Part shown: piece by piece, positions 30,808 through 37,894 of the stretch | How positions within the stretch are numbered: the stretch's first letter is position 1 | How the letters are laid out: the number at the start of each line of letters is the position of its first letter | NCBI RefSeq assembly: GCF_006770285.1 | Contig: NZ_CP017195.1 | Span: 1,612,001 to 1,676,000 of the forward strand | Length of the DNA: 64,000 bases | Direction of reading: 5' to 3' | From: Lactococcus paracarnosus | GTDB taxonomy: Bacteria; Bacillota; Bacilli; Lactobacillales; Streptococcaceae | Position numbers and translations under genes: made by a program | Notes under the pieces: generated by a model | The model's input: only the letters and a program-made list of their open reading frames with translations | Database searches by the model: none | Told to the model about the DNA's origin: nothing

Positions 30808-32088
30808 ATGAAAAAAATATCCGCAATAAAAATATCTGGAATTAGTCTCCCACTCTATGCCTTCGTTATGATTATCCTTGCCATCGTCATCAGCTTAGGC
30901 AAACTCCCACTCAACATGGTTGGGATCACTTTACTATTAGTTGCCCTAGGACATCTGCTCTACTATATTGGTGAGAAGTTACCTATTATGAATGCCTATC
31001 TTGGTGGGGGATCTGTATTTACCCTGATAGGGGCAACACTTCTGTCAACTTTTCACTTGATTCCGACACATGTTATTGGTGCTGTTGGTAAATTTATGGG
31101 CGGTCAATTCGGCTTTCTGGACTTCTATATCGCCGCACTTATCTGTGGCTCTATTTTAGGGATGAATCGCAAACTTTTGATCAAGGCATCAACTAAATTT
31201 ATCCCCGTTGCTTTGGTCACGATGGTCGTTGGTTTCTTTGCAGTAGGTTTCATGGGCATGTTACTTGGTAAGGGCTTTGCTCACTCTGTTATGTATGTAT
31301 CGATGCCGATGATGGCTGGTGGTATGGGCGCAGGCATCACCCCGCTCTCTCAAATCTACGCATCTGGCTTATTTCATGGCAATCAAACTGCGATTTTCTC
31401 TCAATTAGCACCAGCAGTTACTTTCGGGAATATTATCGCCATCATCGGCGCATTATCTATCTCAAAAGTGTTTGCCAAAACGAAATATAATGGCCATGGT
31501 ACGCTGATTACAGCGACTAAGGAAGAATTAGCTAAACCAAAAATAGTTTTAGATGCCCAACAAATCGGTGTCGGACTCTTGTTTTCCTTCTCTCTTCTCA
31601 TGGTTGGTAACATCCTCAATAACTTTTTCCCAAAAGTGCATGAGTATGCCTTCATGATTATTATCGTCTTCATCATCAAAGCAACTGATACTGTGCCTAA
31701 AAAATTAGAAGATGCTGTGGTAATGTTCAATCAAGTCATCATGACAAATTTGACCCATGCTGTATTAGCTGGTATCGGGTTGGCTTTGATTGACTTAAGA
31801 ACACTGGCTTCTGCTTTTACTTGGCAATTTGTCGTCCTTTGTTTGACAAGTGTCATCGCAATGGGGCTTACCAGCTGGTTCCTAGGTCTAGCCCTTGGTA
31901 TGTACCCCGTCGAGACCGCAATCGGCGCTGGTATGATTAACAACTCCATGGGTGGTACAGGTAATATCGCAGTTTTATCTGCTGCAGATCGTATGGAAAT
32001 GATTGCTTTTGCACAGATGGCAAATCGGCTATGTGGTGCAATCGTCCTCATCATGGGTGGTATTCTCATCCGATTCTTCTACCACTAA
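30808..32088 (+). CDS. mleP: 2-hydroxycarboxylate transporter family malate permease
   Basis: A 426-residue, roughly eleven-helix carrier of the 2-HCT family. The two Gly-rich reentrant loops appear as PMMAGGMGAGITPLS (about 170-184) and NNSMGGTGNIAVLS (about 378-391). MleP exchanges malate for lactate and generates membrane potential. It lies 13 bp behind mleS with its own ribosome binding site. Citrate transport by the same family is possible, but the context favours malate. Confidence 0.92.
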   Translation: MKKISAIKISGISLPLYAFVMIILAIVISLGKLPLNMVGITLLLVALGHLLYYIGEKLPIMNAYLGGGSVFTLIGATLLSTFHLIPTHVIGAVGKFMGGQFGFLDFYIAALICGSILGMNRKLLIKASTKFIPVALVTMVVGFFAVGFMGMLLGKGFAHSVMYVSMPMMAGGMGAGITPLSQIYASGLFHGNQTAIFSQLAPAVTFGNIIAIIGALSISKVFAKTKYNGHGTLITATKEELAKPKIVLDAQQIGVGLLFSFSLLMVGNILNNFFPKVHEYAFMIIIVFIIKATDTVPKKLEDAVVMFNQVIMTNLTHAVLAGIGLALIDLRTLASAFTWQFVVLCLTSVIAMGLTSWFLGLALGMYPVETAIGAGMINNSMGGTGNIAVLSAADRMEMIAFAQMANRLCGAIVLIMGGILIRFFYH

Positions 32089-32123
32089 GCCATATGCACC
32101 TGAAGATCGGAGCTAGCAACATG

Positions 32124-32170
32124 AAAAAGCAATACCTATCTATGTAATATCTGATAGGTATTGCTTTTTT
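32124..32170 (+). terminator. Terminator of mleS-mleP
   Basis: AAAAAGCAATACCTATC and GATAGGTATTGCTTTTTT pair around a 12-base loop. Confidence 0.95.
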
Positions 32171-32222
32171 ATATCCTTCTTGACATACACCTGATTCGGG
32201 CAATCAAGTTGATACTTTTATA

Positions 32223-32251
32223 TTGCTTAATTCTATAACATGTGCTAGAAT
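32223..32251 (+). promoter_or_regulatory. kup promoter
   Basis: TTGCTT (32223-32228), 17 nt ending TGC, and TAGAAT (32246-32251) form an extended -10 promoter. The predicted start lies just before the aptamer-like RNA. Confidence 0.7.
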
Positions 32252-32261
32252 AAGCATACTT

Positions 32262-32406
32262 TGTTAGTTTATGGGGAGTAGCAGCAGTCTTTATGACTGG
32301 AATGAATCAACATTTACCCGTGTGCTTCACAGCATACTGGTTCATTCTTAATTTGCCAGACCAAGAGAATACGTCTAGTTTCAAGGCTTTATTTTCTTGG
32401 TTTTTT
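32262..32406 (+). ncRNA. Probable yybP-ykoY-like riboswitch with intrinsic terminator upstream of kup
   Basis: The leader carries GGGGAGTAGC (32273-32282) and GCCAGACC (32355-32362), the two hallmark strands of the yybP-ykoY (Mn2+) aptamer. A hairpin GCAGTC/GACTGG corresponds to P2. A P3-like stem AATGAATC/GGTTCATT encloses an internal loop and an upper hairpin GTGTGC/GCATAC. ACCAAGAGAA at the aptamer 3' strand can instead pair with TTTTCTTGGT (32393-32402), followed by six T, forming a terminator. Ligand-stabilised P1 would prevent it (ON switch). P1 is weak and the P4 helix seems missing, so the ligand class is uncertain; the terminator switch itself is well supported. Confidence 0.6.
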
Positions 32407-32431
32407 ACTAGCAAAAATTTTGGAGGAAAAC

Positions 32432-34441
32432 ATGTCTAAAGGAAATCTTAAATCAAAAGCAACACTCGGCGGTGTACTAGTTGCGACAGGCATTGTGTAT
32501 GGCGATATTGGTACCAGTCCGCTATACGTTATGAAATCAATTGTCAGCGGGCAGGGTGGGCTACATAATATTTCAGAATCATTCTTAATCGGATCGGTTT
32601 CATTAATTCTTTGGACGCTCACCTTATTAACAACTTTCAAGTATGTCCTTATTGCCTTACAAGCAGATAATCATGGTGAAGGTGGTATTTTTTCACTTTT
32701 TACCCTAGTACGTAAGCAGGCAAAATTTCTGACGATCGTGGCGATGATCGGGGGTGCAGCATTACTTGCTGATGGGGTCCTGACGCCAGCCATGACCGTG
32801 ACGACCGCCATAGAGGGTTTAAAAGAAATCCCCGCCTTTACATCGGTATTCGGTAATAGTCAAACTGTCATCGTCATTATTACTTTAGCAATCATTACCC
32901 TACTATTTTTCATACAACGCTTTGGCACGGATAAAATCGGCAAAGTCTTTGGCCCGATCATGTTTCTATGGTTCACTTTTATCGGCCTTATTGGCCTGGC
33001 GAATATGATGTCAAACTTAAACGTCTTGCGTGCCATCAATCCTTACTACGCCTTTCATGTCCTCTTTAGTGCCGACAACAAGGCTGGATTATTAATCTTA
33101 GGTAGTGTATTTCTTGCTACGACAGGGGCAGAGGCCCTGTATTCAGATTTAGGACATGTGGGTAAATATAATATTTATGCAAGCTGGCCTTATATCAAAA
33201 TCAGCTTATTACTCAGCTACTTTGGACAGGCAGCATTCCTATTAAGAGCCAAGGAATTACCAAACTATCACTTAATGGATGATTTCAATCCCTTTTTCAA
33301 TATGATTCCAGATAGCTTAATGCTGGTTGGCGTTATTTTTGCCAGTGTTGCTGCTATTATCGCATCACAAGCCCTTATCACTGGTGCTTTTACACTCGTT
33401 TCAGAAGCTATGAAACTCCGTCTACTCCCTAAATTAAAGATTCTCTACCCTGGTAATACACGTGGACAAATGTATCTGCCCTTAGTGAATGCCTTATTAT
33501 GGATCCTAACCAGTTTAGTCGTACTGATTTTTAAAACAAGTCACAAAATGGAATCAGCCTACGGCCTAGCCATCACAGTTACCATGCTAATGACGACCAT
33601 TTTATTACATTATTTCTTAAAGATAAATCGCTGGAACAAAATCGTTTCCAACATCACAATTCTCTTATTCTTAACGATTGAAACAATCTTTTTCATGTCA
33701 AGTCTAGCTAAATTTTTCAATGGTGGTTATATTGCTATTTTAATTGCCATCGCCATATTGAGTGTCATGTATATCTGGGAAAAGGGCAATATCATTCAAG
33801 AAAATATGTTGAAAACCCTAGATTTGACTGATTATGTCGACCAAATGAGACAGTTAAAATATGATCGAAACTATGACTTATATCAAACAAACTTGGTCTA
33901 TCTGACAACCCATATGAAGGGAGATAGGATTGAGGAAGGTATCATCTATTCCATTTTAGATAAACATCCTAAACGGGCATCCGTCTACTGGTTTGTCAAT
34001 ATTGAAGTGACAGATGAACCTTACACGAAAGAATATACTGTAGACATGATGGATACTGATTTTATCGTCATCATAAAACTATATTTAGGCTTCCGAGTAA
34101 AACAAGATATTAATATTTATATCAATCATATCGTAAAATCACTCATTGCTGATGGTGATTTACAAGCTCAGTATCAAAAATATTCGATTAAACCAGGTCG
34201 TAACATCGGTGACTTCCAGTATGTGTTGATTCAAGAAAGGCTGTCAAATCACCTAGACATGTCTAAATTTGATAGACAAATCATGCAAGCTAAACTCTTT
34301 ATCAAACGCTTTACCACGACACCTGATAAATGGTTCGGCCTTGAATTTAGTGATACAACTTACGAAGTCGTCCCCTTAATGATTGGTAAAGATCCTGAAA
34401 TCCAATTAACAAAACGGCAACCTGAACCTCTTCAGCCTTAA
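32432..34441 (+). CDS. kup: Kup-family potassium uptake protein
   Basis: A 669-residue K+/H+ symporter of the KUP/HAK/KT family. The first helix carries the family signature GIVYGDIGTSPLYV (about 20-33). About twelve helices fill residues 15-450, and a cytosolic C-terminal domain follows (about 460-669). Lactococcal KupA/KupB are inhibited by c-di-AMP, and the c-di-AMP synthase operon lies convergent next door. The ATG at 32432 follows GGAGG; the four-codon extension is rejected. Expression seems to be controlled by the leader RNA upstream. Confidence 0.95.
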   Translation: MSKGNLKSKATLGGVLVATGIVYGDIGTSPLYVMKSIVSGQGGLHNISESFLIGSVSLILWTLTLLTTFKYVLIALQADNHGEGGIFSLFTLVRKQAKFLTIVAMIGGAALLADGVLTPAMTVTTAIEGLKEIPAFTSVFGNSQTVIVIITLAIITLLFFIQRFGTDKIGKVFGPIMFLWFTFIGLIGLANMMSNLNVLRAINPYYAFHVLFSADNKAGLLILGSVFLATTGAEALYSDLGHVGKYNIYASWPYIKISLLLSYFGQAAFLLRAKELPNYHLMDDFNPFFNMIPDSLMLVGVIFASVAAIIASQALITGAFTLVSEAMKLRLLPKLKILYPGNTRGQMYLPLVNALLWILTSLVVLIFKTSHKMESAYGLAITVTMLMTTILLHYFLKINRWNKIVSNITILLFLTIETIFFMSSLAKFFNGGYIAILIAIAILSVMYIWEKGNIIQENMLKTLDLTDYVDQMRQLKYDRNYDLYQTNLVYLTTHMKGDRIEEGIIYSILDKHPKRASVYWFVNIEVTDEPYTKEYTVDMMDTDFIVIIKLYLGFRVKQDINIYINHIVKSLIADGDLQAQYQKYSIKPGRNIGDFQYVLIQERLSNHLDMSKFDRQIMQAKLFIKRFTTTPDKWFGLEFSDTTYEVVPLMIGKDPEIQLTKRQPEPLQP

Positions 34442-34540: not shown

Positions 34541-35899
34541 TTAATCTATACCGATTTCGTCACTTACAACTGCTACGATGGTGTCGACATAATCGTTCAC
34601 TTCCCCATCAGTTGGTGCTTCGGCCATCACACGTAAGAGTGGCTCTGTACCACTTGGGCGAACAAGAATCCGGCCATTTCCGGCCATCTTCTCTTCCATT
34701 TCTCCAATGACAGCTGCGATAGCCGGTACTTCCATGGCCTTAGCTTTCATGCTATTTTCAACACGAACATTGACTAATTTTTGCGGATAAATCTTGACTT
34801 CACTAGCTAATTCAGATAATTTTTTACCCGTTTCACGCATCACTTTAACCAATAATATCGCGGATGCTTGACCATCTCCAGTTGTATTATTATCCAGATA
34901 GATAATATGCCCTGACTGTTCGCCACCAAAATTATAGCCATTTTGCTTCATTTCTTCAACAACATAACGATCACCAACACCAGTAATCACAGTATTGATG
35001 TTAGCTGTTTCTAATGCTTTATGGAAACCTAAATTAGACATAACAGTTGTGACGATGGTATCTTTGCTTAATAATCCCTTATCTTGTAAATATTTACCAA
35101 TGATAAACATGATCTTGTCACCATCAACAATGGCACCCATTTCATCTACTGCGATTAAGCGATCGCCATCCCCATCGAAAGCCAAGCCTAAATCAGAATG
35201 CGTTGCAAGTACTTCTTTAGCTAGATTTTCTGGGTGAGTTGAACCAACACCTAAATTAATATTCAAGCCATCAGGTGCTTCCCCAATCACATGGATATCT
35301 GCAGATAAGTCACTAAATACAGTTCTTGCACTCGTACAGGTTGCACCATTAGCCGTGTCTAAGGTGATTTTGAAGCCTTCAAAACTACCTTCAGCAGTCG
35401 CTTTTAGAAATTCATCGTATTTTCGAACAGCCTCAGCATAATCATGCAAGACACCTAAACCTTGAGCTGAAGGCCTAGGCAATGCATCAACTTCAGCATC
35501 AAGCAAGGCTTCAATTTCAAGCTCTTGGCTATCTGCTAATTTAAAGCCGTCTCCACCGAAAAACTTAATGCCATTATCTAAAGCAGGATTATGACTAGCA
35601 GAAATCATAACACCAGCAGAAACTGAATCTTTTTTCACTAGATAAGCAACACCAGGTGTTGCAATAACACCTAAGTCAAATACTTCTATACCAACACTTA
35701 ACAGTCCTGAAATCAAAGAAGTGCCTAACATCTGTCCTGAAATCCTTGTGTCCCTTGCAACATATACTTTTGGTGTCTCAACCTCATGCTGAGACAGCAC
35801 ATAGCCGCCAAAACGACCAAGTTTAAAAGCCATTTCTGGTGTTAACTCAACATTTGCTTCTCCACGAACACCATCAGTTCCAAAATACTTACCCATCAT
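34541..35899 (-). CDS. glmM: Phosphoglucosamine mutase
   Basis: A 452-residue enzyme that interconverts glucosamine-6-P and glucosamine-1-P for UDP-GlcNAc and cell wall synthesis. The phosphoserine loop is [17 protein letters not shown] (about 100-116), the metal loop DGDGDR (about 240-245), the sugar loop GGEQSGHI and the phosphate-binding loop [14 protein letters not shown] near the end. It is last in the cdaA-cdaR-glmM operon; GlmM is known to bind and inhibit CdaA. Two adjacent ATG codons share one AGAGATA site. Confidence 0.97.
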
Positions 35900-35940
35900 T
35901 ATCTCTTTTCAATTGTTTAGTTGATTCGGGTTAAACAAGA

Positions 35941-35967
35941 AAAATTAGTGCAAATAAACTGCACTAG
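35941..35967 (-). terminator. Weak attenuator between cdaR and glmM
   Basis: On the minus strand TAGTGCA and TGCACTA pair around a seven-base loop, followed by ATTTTT. The 158-bp gap suggests partial uncoupling of glmM from cdaAR. Confidence 0.55.
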
Positions 35968-36057
35968 TTTCTTTATAGCCCTAACTATCTGATATTGATC
36001 CCACTTGCTAGTGTTTAACTCAATTATCAGATTTTTTTTCATTTAATCTATTATAAC

Positions 36058-37017
36058 TTATTTTTTAGTTGGTGTCACTGTCACCTCAATTTGATTCGGT
36101 GTTGTTGTGACATTGTCTATAGAAAGCGGCACCTTAATCACCGTTTCTTTTGTAATATCAGTCACGTCAATGTTTGCTGTAATATTTGAAATATTATCAA
36201 TATATTTTTGTTCACCAGCAATATTGACAGTATCTTTTGCTAATTTAAAGGCATAATCTTTTATAGAACTGTCTTTCTTACCTGTAATCTGACCAACAAC
36301 AGGGACATTTTTATTTGGTAACCCAACCTCAACTTGCATCTTAACAGATGTTGGTGATAACTTAGTTGGTAGCACCTTACCTGAACTATCTACTGCTCTC
36401 AAAAAGACTTTACCAGAAAAATTATTGTCAAGAATAACATCACTAGGCAACACTGCTTCTACTCTAGCAATTTGTGTAATAATAGAAGCACCTGAAGTCA
36501 CTGTTACCGTTTTTTTATCTGTACTAATACTTGTTAATTTATAACCTAATGGTAATTGTTTCTCAGAAACAACTGGTGTAATATCGAATGTTTTACTTGC
36601 TTTCTTTTCTATGGTAACTGAAATGTTGCCTGGATCGACCTGTGCATTCACACCCGTTGCTAATTCAACAACTCTAATCGGCACCTCAACTGTCCCTTCT
36701 TTGGCTTTGCTCAAGTCTGCTACTAGATGGAAGCTTCTTGTATCTGGTGTTTTTTCAGCTGTCAGCCGAACTTGATTATAAGATGTTAGATAAACATTAG
36801 CAGTGCCATCATATCCTGAAACAAAGTAGCGATCATTATCATATTTCAAATCGATCGGCATGTCATAAATTGTTGTAGAATGTGTTTCTGATGTATTGGT
36901 TCGCTCGCTTGAATTCTTCAATAGAACAGCATTTGCATTAAAGAATAAAATAACCGCAAAGAATACACTGATTAAAATATAAATAATTTTGGAGGATAAA
37001 AAATCTTTATTTTTCAT
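36058..37017 (-). CDS. cdaR: CdaA regulatory protein with YbbR domains
   Basis: A 319-residue protein with one N-terminal membrane helix (about 8-29) and an extracellular part of three to four YbbR repeats, each with paired strands and motifs like VTIEKKASKTFDITPVV. CdaR binds CdaA and modulates c-di-AMP synthesis. Its start overlaps the end of cdaA by 11 bp, so the two are coupled. Confidence 0.95.
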   Translation of the reverse strand: MKNKDFLSSKIIYILISVFFAVILFFNANAVLLKNSSERTNTSETHSTTIYDMPIDLKYDNDRYFVSGYDGTANVYLTSYNQVRLTAEKTPDTRSFHLVADLSKAKEGTVEVPIRVVELATGVNAQVDPGNISVTIEKKASKTFDITPVVSEKQLPLGYKLTSISTDKKTVTVTSGASIITQIARVEAVLPSDVILDNNFSGKVFLRAVDSSGKVLPTKLSPTSVKMQVEVGLPNKNVPVVGQITGKKDSSIKDYAFKLAKDTVNIAGEQKYIDNISNITANIDVTDITKETVIKVPLSIDNVTTTPNQIEVTVTPTKK

Positions 37018-37894
37018 TTTCTTTTCCTCTCTTTGCTAATAATTTAGTCAGAAGATTTGGCGTTTTATCAGCTATGCCTGTATCCTCTACATGCTTAATC
37101 AAAAAATCATGAAACTCACTTTTCGAAAGGTCTGAATAAAATTCACCATTTTCTGTAATCGACATACCACCCGTTTCCTCAGAAACGATCAAGGTGATCG
37201 CATCAGAAACCTCAGATATACCAATGGCAGCCCTATGTCGTGTCCCAAATTCTTTAGAAATCTTACCATCTTCTGTTAAAGGAAGATAGGCTGATGTGAC
37301 AGCAATTTTATCGCCTTGAACAATCACTGCTCCATCATGGAGCGGTGTATTCGGAATAAAAATATTAATCAAGAGCTCAGCCGTAATATCTGCATCCAGT
37401 TTAATACCTGTCGATACAAATTCTTCTAATGTCTGTGATTGCTCTATCACGATTAAAGCGCCTATTTTACGTTCGCTCATATAATAAAATGCTTTTTCAT
37501 ATGCTTTAATATAGCTGGTTCTTTTAACATTTCGATCTGATATGCCAAAGTTTAGAAGATTAGTAGTTCGACCTAGACTTTCAAGACCACGGCGAATCTC
37601 GGGTTGAAAGATGATGACTGCAGCAATCACGCCATAGGTAACAACTTGATTGAGTAGCCACTCAAAAGTCCCTAACCCTAGCCAACCACTGACAACTTTA
37701 AGCATGATAAATAAGAGGACACCACGCACTAATGTCATCATTTTGGTGCCTTGGACACTCCTTAAGGACTTATAAATTAAGAAAGTAATTAAGGAAATAT
37801 CCGCAACAGCGATAAATAGTCGCCAAGGCGTTAGATTTAACTGGATTATTTCCCGCCAATACTGCAAATTAAAAATCTGATTGAAATCATTCAT
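37007..37894 (-). CDS. cdaA: Diadenylate cyclase CdaA
   Basis: A 295-residue membrane enzyme that makes c-di-AMP from two ATP. Three membrane helices fill about 25-95, followed by the DisA_N catalytic domain with HDGAVIVQ (about 167-174) and GTRHRAAIG (about 199-207), the two active-site motifs. c-di-AMP controls K+ and osmolyte import. The kup gene, which encodes a likely target, is convergent to this operon. The upstream region ends at an IS element, so its promoter must lie in 37895-38048 or inside the IS end. Confidence 0.97.
   Translation of the reverse strand: MNDFNQIFNLQYWREIIQLNLTPWRLFIAVADISLITFLIYKSLRSVQGTKMMTLVRGVLLFIMLKVVSGWLGLGTFEWLLNQVVTYGVIAAVIIFQPEIRRGLESLGRTTNLLNFGISDRNVKRTSYIKAYEKAFYYMSERKIGALIVIEQSQTLEEFVSTGIKLDADITAELLINIFIPNTPLHDGAVIVQGDKIAVTSAYLPLTEDGKISKEFGTRHRAAIGISEVSDAITLIVSEETGGMSITENGEFYSDLSKSEFHDFLIKHVEDTGIADKTPNLLTKLLAKRGKENEK

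Follow-up and report, generated by a model that had tools for sequence, protein, structure and literature searches.

The kup locus and its leader

The window analysed here is a stretch of 64 kb from a genome that consists of a single contig of 2.27 Mb. It carries kup, whose product matches PF02705 with 486 bits and is the sole match to that family in the genome at E ≤ 0.001 (Table 1). Convergent to kup, on the reverse strand at 34541–37894, lie genes that we take, as recognised from their sequence, to be glmM, a cdaR-like gene and a cdaA-like (diadenylate cyclase) gene. On the other side, a strong hairpin (32118–32175) separates the kup promoter from the carrier gene that lies upstream; this hairpin is likely the terminator of the carrier gene, and its match to the Rfam family Plastid-psbA-4, found on both strands below the cut-off (E 5.5e-5 and 0.0011), is probably that of a generic hairpin.

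The putative kup promoter was placed by eye. A promoter/terminator consensus scan of 32050–32500 gave no promoter-like site and left the kup terminator unreported, the latter probably because structure inside the hairpin goes beyond the loop limit of the scan. Six relatives in the genus have a divergent kup: in four of them TTGACA -17 nt- TAAAAT/TAGAAT lies directly 5′ of the aptamer, and in the remaining two the promoter is found some tens of bases farther upstream (both by eye).

Table 1. Features of the kup leader and gene, in window coordinates.
Feature	Position	Strand	Basis
Putative kup promoter, TTGCTT -17 nt- TAGAAT, TG before the -10	32223–32251	+	by eye
Aptamer	about 32268–32367
P1 switch helix, 5′ strand	32268–32274	+	alignment and pair counts
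GGGGAGTAGC = GGGGAGUAGC, L1 metal-docking strand and P1.2	32273–32282	+
P2 hairpin, CAGUC/GACUG	32285–32299	+	MFE folds
P3 with one-sided L3 loop	32300–32347
P3a 5′ strand GAAUGAAUCA, partner 32338–32347	32300–32309	+	MFE fold, pair counts
L3 loop ACAUUUACCC	32310–32319	+	alignment with yoaB-type leaders
P3b hairpin, GUGUGC-UUCACA-GCAUAC	32320–32337	+	MFE folds
P3a 3′ strand UGGUUCAUUC	32338–32347	+	MFE fold, pair counts
7-nt linker replacing P4	32348–32354	+	alignment with P4-bearing Lactococcus-type leaders
GCCAGACC, 3′ strand of P1.2, L1 and start of P1	32355–32362	+	alignment, position
Intrinsic terminator, 11-bp outer stem CCAAGAGAAUA/UAUUUUCUUGG then UUUUUU	32361–32406	+	-14.2 kcal/mol, z -4.2
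Terminator stem; T-run TTTTTT	32361–32400; 32401–32406
Shine-Dalgarno GGAGG	32422–32426	+	sequence
kup, KUP/HAK/KT K+ transporter, ATG start, 669 aa	32432–34441	+	ORF

The initial annotation had described a yybP-ykoY-like leader with the expected motifs at both ends, a P2-like hairpin and a P3-like stem with an internal loop, and all of these parts are present. The consensus L1 GGGGAGUAG and its partner strand GCNAGACC are both found in the window, at 32273–32282 and 32355–32362, with P1.2 formed by the pairs G32281-C32356 and C32282-G32355. P1 is indeed weak, consisting of G32274-C32361, G32273-C32362 and U32272-A32363 followed by an A32271/A32364 mismatch and weak pairs, and P4 is missing as had been suspected, a short linker standing in its place. 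The 5′ arm of the terminator begins with the CC(A) that closes P1, i.e., with the P1 3′ strand, which bears out the overlap of terminator and aptamer claimed earlier. P2, for which differing sequences are able to pair in the relatives (by eye), was left out of the counted structure.

The L. lactis yoaB element (RF00080; PDB 4Y1I) is alike in its L1 GGGGAGUAGC, in P1/P2/P3, in an asymmetric L3 with the coordinating adenosine third, in a weak P1 switch helix whose 3′ strand doubles as the 5′ arm of the terminator, and in its ON polarity, which for kup we infer. In contrast to that element the kup leader has no P4, and therefore a three-way rather than a four-way junction; it scores below the gathering cut-off of RF00080, and its target is a K+ importer. 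A streptococcal Mn-sensing riboswitch reportedly stands before an Mn2+/Ca2+ ATPase (Martin et al. 2019). A candidate for this streptococcal element, the ATPase leader at L013 from the same family as the window, shares with the kup leader the 7-nt linker in place of P4, L1 and its 3′ strand, and the overlapping terminator, and differs from it in the target gene and in L3 (UCACUAC versus ACAUUUACCC). The X. oryzae yybP-ykoY element has an L3 that starts with ACAU as in the window (PMC6754395), whereas its junction is four-way and its target another one. Since the gathering score and P4 are both missed, we file the kup leader as a P4-less yybP-ykoY variant with a new target.

Class membership and distribution

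Within a 381-base stretch RF00080 matches the kup leader of the window with 28.8 bits (E 3e-6), and searched over the 2.27 Mb of the genome it has E 4.2e-6, with no other RF00080 match reaching E ≤ 1. The covariance search proposed in the initial annotation yields a match, but one under the Rfam gathering cut-off of 45 bits, and for this reason a gathering-threshold Rfam scan of the window is empty. The leader as a whole folds with z -4.4, none of 200 shuffles being as stable; the aptamer on its own does not stand out (z -1.8, 11/200 shuffles as stable). The strength of the case for a riboswitch is comparative.

In an alignment of 11 kup leaders P1 pairs vary as GC/AU and as AU/UA, and three of five covariation measures exceed all shuffles; the other two are at shuffle level (pairs changing on both sides, 5 vs. 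4.4 shuffled; further pair types, 6 vs. 8.0), because few lineages are represented. Alignment A3, comprising 64 elements (33 kup leaders and 31 ATPase leaders), has 94.2% of its cells paired, changes on both sides in 13 of 18 pairs, and a covariation score of 0.510 vs. 0.178 ± 0.010 shuffled and at most 0.113 for slid versions; these figures lean high, as the sequences are related to one another and were aligned to fit the structure. The covariation of P1 and P3, weaker on the first 11 sequences, is borne out on A3, and the stems of the kup leaders do covary across relatives.

Conservation in the 33 kup leaders of A3 is higher in L1 and the first two L3 residues, which are invariant, than in the stems. 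All 33 have the L1 GGAGUAGC and the GC.AGAC 3′ strand, departures being confined to kup leaders collected later, in E. quebecensis (GGAGCAAC) and at L252 (GAGAGUAGC). P1.2 is GC/GC in 33/33 kup leaders and has A-U as its first pair in 29/31 ATPase leaders, a compensated difference, while the outermost counted P1 pair forms in 15 of the 33 kup leaders.

Of 20 loci scanned with RF00080 at E ≤ 0.001, the Lactococcus-type leader alone was recovered, the kup loci included in the scan being missed, and we therefore built models of our own, R1 and R2. R1, trained on 11 kup leaders from two genera, gave hits at 55 places, spread over 52 of 395 Lactobacillales genomes: 23 before kup (the window and 22 others), 30 before P-type cation ATPases, and two spurious ones (L082 and L083), which have neither the L1 motif nor a kup or ATPase signature. 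Targets were assigned by the protein signatures GDIGTSP and D[KR]TGTLT, which we take to mark KUP and P-type ATPases, respectively. Eight P4-bearing Lactococcus-type ATPase leaders were not recovered by R1 (64/72 sources aligned). The broader R2 has a match at E ≤ 0.01 in 344 of the 395 genomes of the order, part of the places being listed and few contexts read. In 299 genomes of the class, 28 have an R2 match at E ≤ 1e-4, two of these outside the order; this search added 29 new loci (L315–L343), and the 26 parsed (L323, L324, and L340 were left out) comprise 24 before an ATPase, one before kup, and one, L341 outside the order, before neither. RF00080 itself gave 14 matches in the 147 genomes of the family, five before kup and nine before P-type ATPases.

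Within the genus of the window a protein search finds kup in 9 of 12 genomes, and all nine genes have the leader; they fall into a group of three that includes the window (98–100% identity) and a group of six only 58–60% identical to the product in the window. In the order kup is present in 178 of 395 genomes, and among the best 150 kup matches, which do not include that of the window, the element lies upstream in 43, 24 of them known earlier (20 from the R2 listing, four from R1) and 19 found by applying R2 to the upstream DNA. Named species with the element include Enterococcus sulfureus, Vagococcus fessus, and Enterococcus quebecensis, in the last of which L1 is degenerate. Three of 80 named kup loci carry it, each leader being identical to one in the whole-genome set; these three are no rate, as many of the 80 are from Bacteroidota, Actinobacteria, and others. 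A plasmid search with leader and kup matched 39 records, the 20 matches listed covering the kup coding sequence alone, without the leader. Many of the elements, those of Enterococcus type, are near-identical, so the counts given here are not independent events. At L065 the leader is kept although the kup reading frame is broken after about 200 codons (by eye).

Metal site, polarity and alternatives

The residues that hold Mn2+ in the L. lactis element are G9, U39, C40, A41 (through N7), U44, and C45 (PMC9190785). The X. oryzae L3 is ACA48UACU, where A48U abolishes the Mn2+-stabilised state; known members that carry A48U/A41U no longer respond to Mn2+ (PMC6754395). The window keeps the coordinating adenosine in its L3 ACAUUUACCC as A32312, which aligns with A41 of L. 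lactis and A48 of X. oryzae (residue roles from PMC9190785 and PMC6754395), and A is found at the A41-equivalent position in 27/33 kup leaders of A3, window included. Among all collected kup leaders the third L3 base is A in 48/55 and U in 7/55; among the ATPase leaders it is A in 50/51, the remaining one (L040) showing C at that place in the alignment, but A once it is shifted by one base (by eye). Duplicates were left out of these counts (the L016 repeat, L281, L084, L087, L088, and L314), as was a 13-bit R2 match (L287), and L3 was read by eye in three leaders of genus g35 (L171, L172, and L174) that the model misaligned via a long insert.

The seven exceptions (L026, L027, L032, L046, L049, L065, and L185) belong to genera g33, g43, and g35 in two families and have ACUA in place of ACA. 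As all seven read ACUA, insertion of a U that displaces the A would explain them as well as a substitution does. On sequence grounds, U at or before the Mn2+ adenosine is a lead towards altered specificity, and an altered ligand is possible in this minority of other kup leaders. For the window, the suggestion in the initial annotation that a weak P1 and a missing P4 might signal another ligand is not supported: the Mn2+ adenosine is kept, and the absence of P4 is no argument because it is shared by all 31 ATPase leaders of A3 (by eye), P4 being present in eight Lactococcus-type leaders.

In 51/55 kup leaders a segment followed by a T-run can pair with the P1 3′ strand, which thus overlaps the terminator. 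In the other four, all of genus g20, the P1 3′ strand CCUAAGUU could instead pair with AACUUAGGAGG in the Shine-Dalgarno region (by eye); these leaders (L272, L274, L275, and L284) have no terminator and apparently represent a translational version of the switch. Of 51 ATPase leaders, eight failed the automatic terminator test through misparsed motifs, and all eight have a terminator by eye. As the P1 3′ strand serves as terminator 5′ arm or, in g20, could serve as Shine-Dalgarno mask, a ligand that stabilises P1 should turn kup ON. In the window leader the terminated fold is predicted at -51.8 kcal/mol vs. -40.4 kcal/mol with P1 forced, in a model that includes neither tertiary contacts nor metals, and this preference of ~11 kcal/mol for an OFF-by-default fold is as expected for an ON switch. 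In L. lactis, antitermination is reported to proceed through a Mn2+-stabilised P1.1 (PMC11087558).

The resemblance to the class, the covariation, the residues of the metal site, the terminator overlap and the association with kup and ATPase genes are seen directly; together with the RF00080 match below gathering and the retrieval of both kup and ATPase leaders by one kup-trained model, they support what had been proposed at the outset, a yybP-ykoY-like riboswitch before kup. We give a probability of about 0.72 to the reading that the kup leader is a P4-less riboswitch of the yybP-ykoY (Mn2+) type acting as a genetic ON switch, and we infer that Mn2+ is the ligand in the window.

The ligand might instead have drifted, to Mg2+, K+, pH or another ion, in at least some lineages of a yybP-ykoY subclass formed by the kup leaders. 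This would fit the ACUA at the metal-coordinating position, seen in 7/55 kup leaders vs. 0/51 ATPase leaders (one re-registered by eye), the A retained by the paired ATPase leader in all six ACUA genomes of g33 and g43, and the loss of the Mn2+ response that A48U/A41U causes in known members (PMC6754395). However, 48 kup leaders, that of the window among them, have kept the A, the ACUA leaders may carry an extra U that moves the A by one position, and the Enterococcus-type kup L3 ACAGCAA is close to ACAGUAA of the ATPase element (two genomes), so that we regard drift as unlikely. A bolder version, in which the kup leaders are a distinct yybP-ykoY branch leaving Mn2+ sensing, with the ACUA lineages reading another ion and the switch re-tuned for K+ homeostasis, seems to us slightly less likely again.

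It is very unlikely, in our judgement, that the leader and terminator are conserved without any ligand and respond, for example, to temperature, NusA or the rate of transcription. The L. lactis P1.1 helix is indeed acted on by NusA and by pausing of RNA polymerase (PMC11087558), but the invariance of L1 and the first two L3 residues in 33 kup leaders goes beyond that of the stems, and the same aptamer is joined to a second apparent expression platform, the masked Shine-Dalgarno. That kup is a K+ gene, with cdaA-like, cdaR-like and glmM genes 3′ of it, could point to the c-di-AMP (ydaO-yuaA) class or to some other K+-related riboswitch class; we find this barely credible, as ydaO-yuaA is absent among the Rfam matches to E 10 in the kup leader, where the sole other riboswitch family is PreQ1, on the opposite strand and far below its cut-off (E 2.9).

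ATPase leaders and proposed mechanism

The genome of the window has a second element at C1:130477–130577 (R2, 44.2 bits), ~150 bases 5′ of the reading frame of a yoaB-like P-type cation ATPase, which is the best match in that genome (45%) to the ATPase of a lactococcus-like relative. The element is absent from the RF00080 matches and has a match to RF02617 (SSRC10) below the cut-off. A kup element and an ATPase element occur within one genome in 15 cases (G000, G156, G182, G196, G215, G223, G224, G255, G257, G331, G340, G348, G364, G444, and G468). From the presence of the second element before a yoaB-like ATPase in the same genome, kup and a manganese-type exporter seem to belong to one regulon.

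If the kup leader works as a Mn2+ ON switch, Mn2+ at high cytoplasmic concentration would bind between L1 and L3, with N7 of A32312 as a soft ligand. Binding would stabilise the weak P1 helix and withhold its 3′ strand (CCA...) from the terminator 5′ arm, so that RNA polymerase would read through into kup, while without ligand the terminator would form. An excess of Mn2+ would in this way induce the cation exporter and K+ import together, which suggests that lactic acid bacteria may raise K+ uptake at high manganese.

To our knowledge there is no established physiological reason for placing a K+ importer under Mn2+. Speculatively, its purpose could be the restoration of K+ uptake under Mn2+ excess, via c-di-AMP compensation and/or proton entry. 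Diadenylate cyclases are Mn2+-dependent. Kup of E. faecalis is a high-affinity K+ transporter inhibited by c-di-AMP (PMC9945522), and with cyclases of that kind an excess of Mn2+ might depress K+ uptake in a way that more Kup would offset. In E. coli, the cytoplasm becomes alkaline under Mn2+ stress, and the mntP riboswitch binds Mn2+ more tightly at alkaline pH (PMC9603457); KUP transporters co-transport H+ with K+ (PMC6994465), so that kup might also, or instead, belong to a Mn2+ regulon because Kup admits H+ with K+ under such stress. Against the pH idea, the abundance of L. lactis KupB is unchanged at pH 8 (PMC13379511). KupB may itself be without the element, as all eight RF00080 matches of the lactococcus-like genus g9 lie before ATPases.

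Read in this way, the kup leaders would add a K+ importer to the apparent Mn2+ regulon of several families of lactic acid bacteria and of enterococci, through elements that the Rfam model scored below cut-off or missed. They would tie manganese to potassium, and so possibly to c-di-AMP, pH and turgor, a link that is directly testable, and they offer naturally occurring variation at, or next to, the base on which Mn2+ specificity depends. A literature search found no report tying a yybP-ykoY/Mn2+ riboswitch to kup; Dambach 2015, Martin 2019 and a 2025 paper on E. faecalis Kup/KimA were outside its scope.

Finally, RF02617 (SSRC10, “Streptococcus sRNA 10”) covers both the aptamer and the terminator of ATPase leaders at L013:1496–1611 and L164:1508–1619, with scores of 109.7 and 46.2 bits, respectively (cut-off 56). 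This family is probably a Mn2+-type riboswitch leader rather than a separate sRNA.
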